DNA of 64,000 bases from Bdellovibrio bacteriovorus. Lineage in GTDB: Bacteria > Bdellovibrionota > Bdellovibrionia > Bdellovibrionales > Bdellovibrionaceae. This document shows, in pieces, positions 29,416 to 34,822 of the stretch. Below the pieces are notes generated by a model that saw only the letters and a program-made list of their open reading frames with translations, made no database searches and had not been told where the DNA came from. The stretch's first letter is position 1. Every line of letters begins with the position of its first letter. The stretch is from NCBI RefSeq assembly GCF_001592755.1, contig NZ_LUKF01000014.1, forward strand, positions 841 through 64,840. The letters are read 5' to 3'. The translations under genes and the position numbers were made by a program.

Positions 29416-29771
29416 AATTTGTGTTTCGAAATGACACACTATGCAATAGACTTAATTTTATAGTTTCAGACACATGGACGTGTTTGGAACGCGGGGAGGG
29501 TGAGGAAGAGATCGCGAACCATGGAAGGTCAAGAGTCAAAAGTTTCTCGCAGGAAACAGGAGCAATAGGTCAGCAGGCACCAAGGATTGGTGAACACGAG
29601 CCGAAGCTACACTCTAAGAATCAATTGCAGGATGCATATGATTCTCCGACTCTCACTCCCCTTTTTTCTCTTTCTTCAAATGACATCGTTGCGTTGGAAT
29701 CTGTGAGTAGTGGGTTGCTGGAACCTGCTGCTTCGGACAGTCCTCGCGCTTGGAGATTTTCTTGGCTTTGA
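29412..29771 (+). CDS. Doubtful ORF coupled to flgI
   Basis: 119 codons starting in an ATGA overlap with the flgI stop, so it would be translated by re-initiation. I recognise no family. The predicted protein is hydrophilic with no signal peptide, and its last quarter is encoded by the left arm of a perfect inverted repeat (LESVSSGLLEP). It could be a remnant or chance frame in a spacer. The surrounding 624-nt gap (29416-30039) has no other convincing gene. Its second half turns G+T-rich on the plus strand. Confidence 0.3.
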   Translation: MKFVFRNDTLCNRLNFIVSDTWTCLERGEGEEEIANHGRSRVKSFSQETGAIGQQAPRIGEHEPKLHSKNQLQDAYDSPTLTPLFSLSSNDIVALESVSSGLLEPAASDSPRAWRFSWL

Positions 29772-29872
29772 TGTCGGGTCGTTTTCTTTCTTTTTGTTGC
29801 TACTGCTGGCGTTCGCTGGCGCTGCGGAACTTGCATCAGGTTCCAGCAACCCACTACTCACAGATTCCAACG
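29692..29872. repeat. Perfect 36-bp inverted repeat in the flgI-flgJ gap
   Basis: The arm at 29692-29727 (beginning CGTTGGAATCTGTG) is the exact reverse complement of 29837-29872. They are separated by 109 nt that contain a small hairpin-prone CTGGCGTTCGCTGGCGC stretch. As RNA it would form a very stable long stem in the middle of the flagellar transcript. No target-site duplication or transposase is seen. Confidence 0.9.
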
Positions 29873-31170: not shown

Positions 31171-31252
31171 ATTGCCGGAAGCCGGTAGAGCTAGCACCCA
31201 TGCAGGGGTTTATTAACAACCTCACCGCCCAGGCGGCATCAAGGATGATGAA

Positions 31253-31774
31253 ATGATGGACGCAACAGTAGAAAGAGCGTTTCAAAAGTTAGAAGCCAAT
31301 CTCGAAGAACTCACAAAGATCTATCGTTCTCTTCTCGATATCGTACGCAAAGAAAAAGACCTTCTTCTTCAAGCGGATCGCGATGCTTTGGATGAAAGCA
31401 ATAAACTCAAAGAAGAATTGCTTTTCAAACTTCGCGCGCAAGATGCTTTGCGTTCTCGCTATGCGATGGATCTAGCAACTATGGTCGGAGCCGACGTTGA
31501 GAATCCTCGTTTGTTGGAGCTTGCCCAAAAATTGGCAGGCACTCCCGCAGCCGATCGTCTTCGCACTCAGCATTCCGCTTTGGATATGTTGATCAAAAGA
31601 ATCACAGATATTAACAAAGATAATGAAGAATATGCTAAGTCCGCTTTGCACTCGTTGAATGGTGCTCTTGGCGAAATCAAAGATACTCTCTCTGGTAAAA
31701 AAACTTACGGAGGCAAAGGCCAATACAAACAAGGCCCTCAAGTATCTGGCAACTTCGTTAGTAAAGAAGCGTAA
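31253..31774 (+). CDS. flgN: FlgN-family export chaperone
   Basis: 173-residue all-helical protein with a long N-terminal heptad pattern (KLEANLEELTKIYRSLLDI) and a charged, Gly/Lys-rich disordered tail (GGKGQYKQGPQ), the usual FlgN pattern. It escorts the hook-filament junction proteins FlgK and FlgL to the export gate, and the next two genes are exactly those. AAGGA precedes the ATG; a second ATG follows directly. The 82-nt gap from flgM has a CCGG-AAG-CCGG hairpin and CCGCC-CA-GGCGG, possibly a diverged copy of the repeats described next. Confidence 0.82.
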   Translation: MMDATVERAFQKLEANLEELTKIYRSLLDIVRKEKDLLLQADRDALDESNKLKEELLFKLRAQDALRSRYAMDLATMVGADVENPRLLELAQKLAGTPAADRLRTQHSALDMLIKRITDINKDNEEYAKSALHSLNGALGEIKDTLSGKKTYGGKGQYKQGPQVSGNFVSKEA

Positions 31775-31822
31775 GCGCGGAAGCGCGCAGAGCCGCAGGG
31801 CGGAGCCCGAAGGCTGAAGCAG
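31775..31822 (+). repeat. Structured intergenic repeat, copy A (flgN-flgK)
   Basis: 48 nt directly after the flgN stop. GCGC-GGAA-GCGC forms a first hairpin. AGCC, an inner GGGC-GGA-GCCC hairpin and GGCT form a second, stacked stem. The ends (24 and 11 nt) are nearly identical to copy B, while the inner hairpin differs but keeps pairing. Confidence 0.8.
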
Positions 31823-31852
31823 TAACAACGACCCACCGAAGATGAGGATAGG

Positions 31853-33259
31853 ATGTCTAAAATCTCGGCTATGATGGATACGGGTAAGCGCTCTCTGATG
31901 AACTCTCAGACAGCATTGCAAACGGTCGGTCATAACATCGCCAATAAATCAACCGAGGGCTTTTCACGCCAGCGTGTTGAGCTATTGTCGAATCAGCCTA
32001 TCGGTGAAGGAAATCTGCAAATCGGTATGGGTGCCCGTGCCGGTGTCGTGACTCGTGTTAACAATCCTTGGTTAGAAAAACAAATTCAAAAAGAAGGCAT
32101 GAACATGGGTTTCCATGATTCTCGTGCCGATGCTCTGGGCCGTGTTGAGCAAATCTACAATGAGCAAAACAATAAAGGCCTGAATCAGTACATGACTGAT
32201 TTCTTCAACTCGTTCCGTGAACTTTCTAATAACCCTGAAAGCTTGGCATCAAGAACTTTGGTGCGTGAGTCCGCTGTGGCGATGTCTAAAGATTTCGGTC
32301 GCGTGGTAGGGCAGTTGAAAGCCGTTCAGGAAGATTTGGATGGTCAGGTTAAGACAACCGTGAACGAGATCAATCAGTTGACGAAAGAAATCGCGCAACT
32401 GAATGAAAAAATCCAAATGATCGAAGTTCAAAAAACTCCGGCCAATGATGAGCGCGATCGTCGTGACCTAGTTCTAAAAAAACTAGGTGAAAAGATCGAC
32501 ATCTCTTGGGCGGAAGGCCGAGACGGCATGGTGACAGTTACTGCTGGTCGTACAGGTATCCTGGTTTCAGGTATCGGTTCTTCGGAATTGAAGGCTGAAC
32601 AAACCGGCAGCCGTGACCGTGTCGAAGTTTTCTTCGTGGGTACGGGAACTCCCGCGAACATCACAGATCAAATCACGGGTGGCCGTATTGGTGGTGCCTT
32701 GGAAGTTCGTGACCGTGTGATTGAAGATCTTTTAAATCACGTCGACAACATGGCTTACACATTGGCGAAAGAAGTCAATAAAGCCCATATCGAGGGATTT
32801 GATAAAAGCGGTCGTCCCGGTGTTTTATTTTTCGAAATGCCGGAACAGTCAAAGGGAGCCGCATCAGTTATCGGATTAAATAAAACAATCTTTAACGATG
32901 TTGGCAGAATCGCGGCCGGAGCCCAGTCCGGTGCGACTGGTGATAATACCGTCGCGAACGTGATCTCTTCTTTGCAGCACCGTCAGGTGATGGATGGTGG
33001 GACATCGACGTTAGACGATTACTACAACACGCAAGTCGGTCAGATCGGTGCGATCTCCCAACGTGCGGTGAAGTCACAAGAGTCTCAGAGAAACGTGATG
33101 AACCAACTTACAAATATTCGTGAGAGTATTAGCGGTGTTTCTTTGGACGAAGAGACAACAAAAATGATCGAGTTCCAAAAAACTTACGATGCCTCTGCTC
33201 GTTTGATCAAAACAGCAGATGAAATGTTTGATACAGTATTGAATTTAAAACGGTTGTAG
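31853..33259 (+). CDS. flgK: Hook-filament junction protein FlgK (HAP1)
   Basis: 468 residues, within the family range. TALQTVGHNIANKSTEGFSR and VELLSNQPIGEGNLQIGMG mark the N-terminus. The middle has a long coiled coil (VKTTVNEINQLTKEIAQLNE), and the C-terminus has SLDEETTKMIEFQKTYDASA. It joins hook to filament. AGGATAGG precedes the ATG. It is flanked on both sides by the structured repeats. Confidence 0.96.
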   Translation: MSKISAMMDTGKRSLMNSQTALQTVGHNIANKSTEGFSRQRVELLSNQPIGEGNLQIGMGARAGVVTRVNNPWLEKQIQKEGMNMGFHDSRADALGRVEQIYNEQNNKGLNQYMTDFFNSFRELSNNPESLASRTLVRESAVAMSKDFGRVVGQLKAVQEDLDGQVKTTVNEINQLTKEIAQLNEKIQMIEVQKTPANDERDRRDLVLKKLGEKIDISWAEGRDGMVTVTAGRTGILVSGIGSSELKAEQTGSRDRVEVFFVGTGTPANITDQITGGRIGGALEVRDRVIEDLLNHVDNMAYTLAKEVNKAHIEGFDKSGRPGVLFFEMPEQSKGAASVIGLNKTIFNDVGRIAAGAQSGATGDNTVANVISSLQHRQVMDGGTSTLDDYYNTQVGQIGAISQRAVKSQESQRNVMNQLTNIRESISGVSLDEETTKMIEFQKTYDASARLIKTADEMFDTVLNLKRL

Positions 33260-33308
33260 GCGCGGTAGCGCGCAGAGCCGCAGCGCCTAGGCGCGCAGGC
33301 TGAAGCAG
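33260..33308 (+). repeat. Structured intergenic repeat, copy B (flgK-flgL)
   Basis: 49 nt starting at the base after the flgK stop. The first 24 nt match copy A at 23 positions and the last 11 nt (GGCTGAAGCAG) are identical. The inner hairpin is GCGCC-TA-GGCGC here instead of GGGC-GGA-GCCC. Confidence 0.8.
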
Positions 33309-33328: not shown

Positions 33329-34411
33329 ATGAGAATTGCAGATAAAATGTCATTCAATCAAGTAAACCAGAATCTGACGAAGAATCGTTCAGATATGGCA
33401 GACTTGCAGAATCAGGCTGCAACTCAAAAGCGTATCAATAAACCTTCGGACGACCCTTTAGCGTCCGCGCGTGTTTTGGCTTCTCGTACTGAAGAACGAG
33501 GAAACTCTCAATTCATTAAAAATATCAATAACGCTCGTTCCTTCCTGGAATTTTCCGACCAATCTTTGGGCGAACTTTCAGAAATCCTAGTGCGTGCAAA
33601 AGAACTGGCTGTCAGCCAATCGAATGATGCCAGCGGAAATGAAGAAACGCGTTTGGTCACAGCGTCTGAGATCGAGCAGATCTACAATCAGGCGATTCAA
33701 ATCGGAAATCGTAAACTCGGTGAGCGTTACGTTTTCGGTGGCTATAAAACTCAAACCACTCCGTTTAATCAAGCCGGCGAATACTTCGGTGATGACGGGG
33801 ATATGAAGATCCAAACTCACAAGGACTCTTTCGTTGCCATGAATATTCCGGGCAGCAAGGTCTTCTTGGGTAAAGGTTTGGGTGGTGATGGCATCGTACG
33901 AGCTCGTTACGAAGCGCCAACAACGGTTGAGCAATTAAAGCAGTTCCAAAAAGAAGAACAAGAGCGTGAAGAGATCAACCGTGAAGTGGAAAGCAACTTC
34001 GTTGAAACGCGCGGTCCGGCTTCAGAGCGCCGTTCAAGTCGTTTTGACAAGCAAGATCCGGTGACCGGTGGCGGGGGAACAAACATCTTTTCGACCATTA
34101 AGGACCTTGAGATTTCTTTGCGCACCAATGATAAGCAAGGCGTTCAAGCGGCCTTGGATACCCTGGATCAGGCGATTTCTCAGGTGGTTTTGACCCGTTC
34201 TGAGGTTGGGTCCAGAATCATGGCTGTGAACAACACCATGGACTCCCTGCAAAAAGCGGTGGTGGACAATAAGGTGGCAGCATCCCAATTGGAAGATGCT
34301 GATGCATTCCAGGTTATTTCAGATATCAATAAGACCGATAGCACCCTAAAAGCGACTCTCGAAACGTCGGGAAAGCTTATTCAACCAAGCCTTCTTGACT
34401 TTCTAAGATAA
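33329..34411 (+). CDS. flgL: Hook-filament junction protein FlgL (HAP3)
   Basis: 360 residues. The flagellin-like N-terminus has RIADKMSFNQVNQNLTKN and RINKPSDDPLASARVL. The middle contains YVFGGYKTQTTPF, typical of FlgL. The C-terminus LTRSEVGSRIMAVNNTMDSL completes the coiled-coil pair. A charged segment around residues 195-250 (EEQEREEINREVES) is an insertion. It forms the distal junction zone before the filament. Confidence 0.95.
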   Translation: MRIADKMSFNQVNQNLTKNRSDMADLQNQAATQKRINKPSDDPLASARVLASRTEERGNSQFIKNINNARSFLEFSDQSLGELSEILVRAKELAVSQSNDASGNEETRLVTASEIEQIYNQAIQIGNRKLGERYVFGGYKTQTTPFNQAGEYFGDDGDMKIQTHKDSFVAMNIPGSKVFLGKGLGGDGIVRARYEAPTTVEQLKQFQKEEQEREEINREVESNFVETRGPASERRSSRFDKQDPVTGGGGTNIFSTIKDLEISLRTNDKQGVQAALDTLDQAISQVVLTRSEVGSRIMAVNNTMDSLQKAVVDNKVAASQLEDADAFQVISDINKTDSTLKATLETSGKLIQPSLLDFLR

Positions 34412-34699: not shown

Positions 34700-34700
34700 C

Positions 34701-34822
34701 GGTCGATGAAAAGGACCCGTCTGACTGCGTTGTCGGGCCTTTTCCTTCACTCCGACGTGCTTCAGCACGCCTCCGTTTCGAAAAAGACCCTCCGCCTTGC
34801 ATCCGAGTCCTTTTGATCGACC
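34701..34822. repeat. Imperfect inverted-repeat element after csrA
   Basis: The arm at 34701-34719 (GGTCGATGAAAAGGACCCG) matches the reverse complement of 34804-34822 at 17/19 positions. The 84-nt interior holds CGTGCTTCAGCACG. A shorter alternative fold (AAAAGGACCCG with CGGGCCTTTT) ends in T-rich sequence and could be the csrA terminator. The following 173 nt up to fliW show only CCTAAAT/ATTTAGG, a small inverted repeat. Confidence 0.75.

Follow-up and report, generated by a model that had tools for sequence, protein, structure and literature searches.

What are two closely similar structured repeats doing at the ends of flgN and flgK, and do they belong to the flagellum at all? The window, by which we mean the whole 64,000-nt stretch of Bdellovibrio bacteriovorus DNA that was analysed, encodes FlgM, FlgN, FlgK and FlgL in that order, followed by CsrA and FliW, as identified with Pfam; the gene names flgM, flgN, flgK and flgL given in a preliminary description of the sequence are correct. 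That description placed the repeats at the stop codons, read them as RNA structures under selection, and suggested that they might set the order of export-chaperone use or translation for the two junction proteins. The features on which the question turns are the following.

31253-31774, plus strand: flgN, the gene upstream of copy 1 (PF05130, E 5.6e-24), with stop codon TAA at 31772-31774
31775-31822, plus strand: element copy 1, 48 nt, in the flgN-flgK gap (covariance-model match of 62.1 bits, E 6.4e-11)
31775-31786, plus strand: H1 of copy 1, GCGC-GGAA-GCGC
31787-31790, plus strand: linker GCAG of copy 1
31791-31794 with 31812-31815, plus strand: P2 of copy 1, AGCC/GGCT
31795-31797 and 31809-31811, plus strand: internal loop of copy 1, GCA and GAA
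31798-31801 with 31805-31808, plus strand: P3 of copy 1, GGGC-GGA-GCCC
31816-31822, plus strand: tail GAAGCAG of copy 1
31853-33259, plus strand: flgK, the gene upstream of copy 2 (PF22638, E 2.8e-60), with stop codon TAG at 33257-33259
33260-33308, plus strand: element copy 2, 49 nt, in the flgK-flgL gap (covariance-model match of 67.5 bits, E 6.4e-12)
33260-33271, plus strand: H1 of copy 2, GCGC-GGTA-GCGC
33272-33275, plus strand: linker GCAG of copy 2
33276-33279 with 33298-33301, plus strand: P2 of copy 2
33280-33282 and 33295-33297, plus strand: internal loop of copy 2, GCA and GCA
33283-33286 with 33291-33294, plus strand: P3 of copy 2, GCGC-CTAG-GCGC
33302-33308, plus strand: tail GAAGCAG of copy 2
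33329-34411, plus strand: flgL, the gene after copy 2, named from its flagellin domains (PF00669 and PF00700) and its adjacency to flgK

Each copy starts with the nucleotide that immediately follows the stop codon, in keeping with the place at or next to it that had been noticed, and their outer parts are near-identical (repeat finding returns direct repeats of 31 nt at 90% and 18 nt at 89% identity). The inner hairpin does change from GGGC/GCCC to GCGC/GCGC between the copies with its pairing retained. The folding energy of a single copy is modest when set against shuffled sequences (z of -2.35 for copy 1 and -1.35 for copy 2), and relatives were therefore compared, the cross-genome comparison serving as the proof of structure.

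This comparison yields a common skeleton: a 4-bp hairpin (H1), the linker GCAG, a second hairpin made of P2 (3-4 bp), a GNA/GNA 3x3 internal loop and P3 (4-6 bp), and the tail GAAGCAG. The unpaired letters GCAG, the G-N-A on both sides of the internal loop (middle base free) and the terminal GAAGCAG are near-invariant, and the hairpin loops vary freely. Among 11 flagellar-gap copies, which align easily, 97.2% of stem cells are paired and 24 cells carry a double change, against 8.1 in shuffles; sliding the stem partners abolishes the pairing signal. In alignments fitted by the covariance model, which are biased toward structure and toward G-U over A-C, 97.2% of cells are paired across 66 copies (124 double-change cells versus 33.5 in shuffles) and 94.8% across 88 units from loci outside the model-building set (149 versus 29.5). 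The excess of G-U over A-C in the stems (32 versus 14) hints weakly at constraint on the sense RNA, the model itself favouring G-U.

The same holds at fixed sites over short evolutionary distances. In the close relative G018, 23 of 24 elements have an assignable orthologous position in the window's genome (G000); nearly all of these positions hold an element, and the same gene ends are occupied. Over 14 aligned element pairs from these two genomes, both sides differ in seven stem pairs, every one of which still pairs; five others differ on one side and remain paired, and six are broken; by arithmetic estimate from the single-site rate, about one double change would be expected. An entire H1 may be swapped between close relatives (e.g. 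GCGC..GCGC to GGCC..GGCC), and double changes are frequently clustered in blocks, which would also result from template switching within a hairpin or conversion between copies, and not solely from stepwise compensation. Two-sided stem changes, across the genus and between close relatives, thus bear out the conserved pairing that had been read as selection on structure.

A search of 60 related genomes returned FlgK orthologues in 58, and the flagellar gaps were read at 30 loci. In many Bdellovibrio species an element of this kind occupies the flgM-flgN, flgN-flgK or flgK-flgL gap, as a rule directly after the stop codon, while the remaining species have no copy, or unrelated sequence, in those gaps. 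A lack of pairing in orthologous gaps, which would have told against a conserved structure, was looked for, and pairing proved to be conserved in the gaps of relatives. A weaker look-alike had also been reported between flgM and flgN.

31174-31206, plus strand: putative decayed remnant between flgM and flgN (GCCGGAAGCCGGTAGAGCTAGC...), which by eye looks like H1 plus the beginning of the second hairpin

The resemblance stands by eye, but the look-alike receives no covariance-model score, even with filters off. Because the orthologous flgM-flgN gap of other species holds a full copy (loci L013, L014, L015, L016 and L020), it is at most a decayed remnant.

These gaps also hold other sequence. 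The flgN-flgK gap is a hot spot, with unrelated structured or repeat-like inserts at L012, L015, L020, L021, L023 and L025. A second repeat family occurs in the window at 29692-29872 (minus strand), its core RAGTTCCGCAGC...GCGAGGACTGTYYGA being enclosed by a long outer stem (40 bp with 98% complementarity; fold z of -10) and no match in Rfam; further copies lie in the flgN-flgK gaps of L012, L023 and L025 and at three other places in G000 (L380-L382), and their outer stems differ greatly in sequence and still pair. Behind csrA, at 34700-34800, the sequence CTGACTGCGTTGTCGGGCC...CTCCGACGTGCTTCAGCACGCC...CCTCCGCCTTGC resembles the L021 flgN-flgK gap insert, and the two probably represent a third repeat family.

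The two flagellar copies belong to a much larger set. A first covariance model, built from flagellar copies, found about 28 places in the window's genome, many of them far stronger than chance, and copies in most members of the genus; a wider model from 66 copies gave 24 matches at E<0.5, one of them weak and coding, on 1.64 Mb of the window's genome taken as whole stretches. By covariance model G000 holds about 26 copies. Exact and near-exact pattern searches of the genome missed the family, since its stem letters are too variable, and the inspected matches with one or two mismatches looked like chance. Within the genus Bdellovibrio the collected set amounts to 201 units at roughly 100 sites. 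In a family survey the element is present in 22 of 24 genus genomes and in one sister genus, which has one or two copies, and a phylum-wide sample of 291 genomes revealed it in no further genus. Copy number ranges from 0 to 41 per genome, with three species having none or one doubtful match, so the element is dispensable. Rfam gave no match at gathering or relaxed thresholds, viral contigs searched with the core pattern gave none, and none of the papers searched links Bdellovibrio with REP sequences, save for one survey of another organism. If genome G005 is HD100, its elements coincide with none of the attack-phase sRNAs listed for HD100 (PMC3627812). This is a previously unnoticed repeat family that occurs almost only in the genus Bdellovibrio, and it adds a well-defined, covariation-backed family to a model predator for which our searches turned up no REP-like family.

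Where the copies lie is sharply defined. The positional set comprises 187 arrays, 13 of them tandem, with 201 units in all. Measured from the sense-strand stop codon, the distance to the array peaks at 0, 1 and 2 nt. At most 3 nt separate array and sense stop in 92 of 155 intergenic arrays, where random placement in the gaps of the window's genome predicts 1.5%, versus eight arrays in the equivalent antisense position; 103 of the 155 lie within 15 nt of a stop codon, as stop-proximal REPs are delimited in E. coli. Merging orthologous places leaves 100 sites, 53 of which are sense post-stop, 3 antisense post-stop, 13 in sense ORFs and 4 in antisense ORFs, a few ORF assignments being uncertain. 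Spacing to the next gene is loose and that gene is sometimes convergent, so the anchor is the stop codon and not the next start codon. The genes that precede the element in G000 include those for a GspE-type ATPase, a flagellin, an H+-pyrophosphatase, a Jag-like R3H protein and a fumarase-family lyase, as well as nuoCD, nrdA, nrdB, nusA, pnp, gapA (GAPDH), bamA and murD. The element is found in at least two genomes for 32 of 86 gene clusters, including one for an ssb-like gene identified by eye. The preliminary description had named random, non-flagellar, REP-like places as evidence against its reading; the genome-wide covariance-model search finds places that are indeed largely non-flagellar and REP-like, but they are not random, being clustered after stop codons in the sense orientation.

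Copies also lie inside proteins. About 15 sites are in frame in unrelated proteins, in either orientation, with a length of about 51 nt, or 17 codons; hosts include linkers of dihydrolipoamide-acyltransferase-like proteins and a PheT-like protein (recognised by eye). Sense copies encode peptides like SADAGSAGAPAGAEAEAA, and antisense copies AAPASAPAGAPALPAAAS. One such host is the FlgJ-like (Rod-binding) protein encoded directly upstream of flgM, which carries the element in sense in G006 and in antisense in B. bacteriovorus kdesi; the window's own FlgJ-like protein is without the element.

L019, 141-190, and L062, 1501-1551: in-frame copies in the FlgJ-like protein, in the sense orientation in one species and antisense in the other

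That one protein region has been entered independently, and in both orientations, speaks for mobility and presents the element as a palindrome shifting between RNA-level and protein-level niches. Arrays also grow and shrink in tandem between genomes. Comparison with empty sites gave no clean insertion with a target duplication, spacers being replaced or unalignable, so that the case for mobility is indirect. Separately, parts of the element are locally amplified upstream of a full copy, as repeated GAGCTGAAGTCCCGTCAGGGGCA or CGGGCCTGCGCCCGGCAGAGCT units (L372, 2001-2050; L347, 2001-2053).

Taken together, we think the odds tilt slightly toward a mobile palindrome family of REP/RPE-like kind that is now retained chiefly as a transcribed structure where reading frames end. 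The element would spread, or would once have spread, as such a palindrome, and most copies would now be retained for what they do at the level of the mRNA. H1 would cover the 12-14 nt that lie under a ribosome on the stop codon and the second hairpin would start just past it, and for this reason the pair could slow or mark termination, or could keep downstream translation separate. By analogy with E. coli REPs near stop codons, it could also block 3'-5' exonucleases and so shield the preceding reading frame once operon mRNA is processed. A bolder form of this proposal, which the sequence pattern leads us to offer tentatively and with clearly less confidence, is that a formerly mobile, lineage-specific RNA structure has been recruited genus-wide as a stop-codon module whose position at 0-2 nt is itself selected; the terminating ribosome would melt the first hairpin and meet the second, and in this way termination, re-initiation or mRNA survival would be tuned for core genes. 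The competing view that the element is selfish or inert, a REP/RPE-like repeat that has no host function and survives where it does least harm, deserves serious weight, although we hold it to be short of probable. It accommodates in-frame copies in both orientations in unrelated proteins, the dispensability of the element, tandem growth and shrinkage and whole-H1 replacement between close relatives, and pairing could be kept by a need of mobility or by template switching that repairs one arm from the other. Under tolerance, however, copies should be scattered across the gap (median 85 nt) rather than peak at 0-2 nt from the stop codon, and a sense bias of 92:8, the occupation of the same gene ends genus-wide and the retention of pairing at fixed orthologous sites are left unexplained. 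Tolerance alone does not readily account for a post-stop distribution that is sharp, sense-biased and conserved by site.

More specific accounts fare worse. A GTAG-type REP moved by a genome-encoded RAYT transposase is improbable: G000 does encode one Y1_Tnp protein and most genus genomes 1-12, but no element was found at the 30 RAYT loci examined (of about 78), the counts are discordant (G007 has no RAYT and 19 copies, G022 has 12 and 3 copies), and of 186 arrays 19 carry a GTAG tag close to the 5' end and 13 close to the 3' end, too few for a REP tag. Intrinsic terminators or transcription attenuators between operon genes would fit GC-rich hairpins located 3' of genes, and yet we regard this account as very improbable, given that the 3' hairpin is followed by the conserved tail GAAGCAG and no U run, that separate T-run terminators follow some copies (e.g. 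L060, L065 and L288), and that the element is often intra-operonic, just ahead of the next gene. Least credible of all is a flagellum-specific regulatory RNA that orders FlgK and FlgL translation or chaperone use. Few sites recur as often as the flgN and flgK ends (seven genomes each), but the majority of sites are at non-flagellar core genes and many species lack the element in these gaps; with the same element following many non-flagellar genes and also lying within genes, the link to junction proteins or export-chaperone order falls away. The nearby downstream genes csrA and fliW, together with the GGA loop of copy 1, suggested CsrA binding, an idea that was rejected since loop sequences vary freely and copy 2 lacks a GGA loop. 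Repeated hairpins within one operon need not mean operon-specific regulation. More generally, the peak at 0-2 nt, the sense bias and the conserved sites make the family a clean natural system for asking how stop-proximal structures act on ribosomes and mRNA.

By form, the element is a REP/RPE-like palindrome, and it also behaves like one. REPs occur downstream of genes and inside genes (PMC3733652), and those of E. coli near stop codons are a device of translation and mRNA stability (PMC12306157); RPEs are known in frame within proteins (PMC10969869, PMC2229807). The element is, as a REP would be, a multi-copy imperfect palindrome mostly outside genes and, as an RPE would be, inserted in frame in unrelated proteins with a recurrent peptide, but a CGTC tag was seen in only 2 (5') and 4 (3') of 186 arrays, too few for an RPE tag, and with GTAG and CGTC tags absent and RAYT linkage not found it is not assigned to either. 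GTAG REPs of E. coli, Pseudomonas and others are likewise short, GC-rich, multi-copy palindromes, mostly downstream of genes, some intragenic and some directly post-stop (PMC3733652, PMC12306157); the Bdellovibrio element differs from them in its two unlike hairpins and fixed GNA/GNA internal loop, and in being strongly sense-biased, with a 0-2 nt post-stop peak and without GTAG or RAYT linkage. Rickettsia palindromic elements (including the CGTC-tagged RPE-4 and RPE-6), compared here by description, are similarly both intergenic and in frame in unrelated proteins with a recurrent peptide (PMC10969869, PMC2229807), but they are described as measuring about 105-150 bp and having terminal inverted repeats, whereas the element has about 51 nt, no CGTC, another lineage and a dominant post-stop sense position. 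The Caulobacter CIR likewise consists of a pair of distinct hairpins with a linker between them (PMC2229807); it is reported to be strictly intergenic with a GANTC motif, whereas the Bdellovibrio element is mostly post-stop and partly intragenic.
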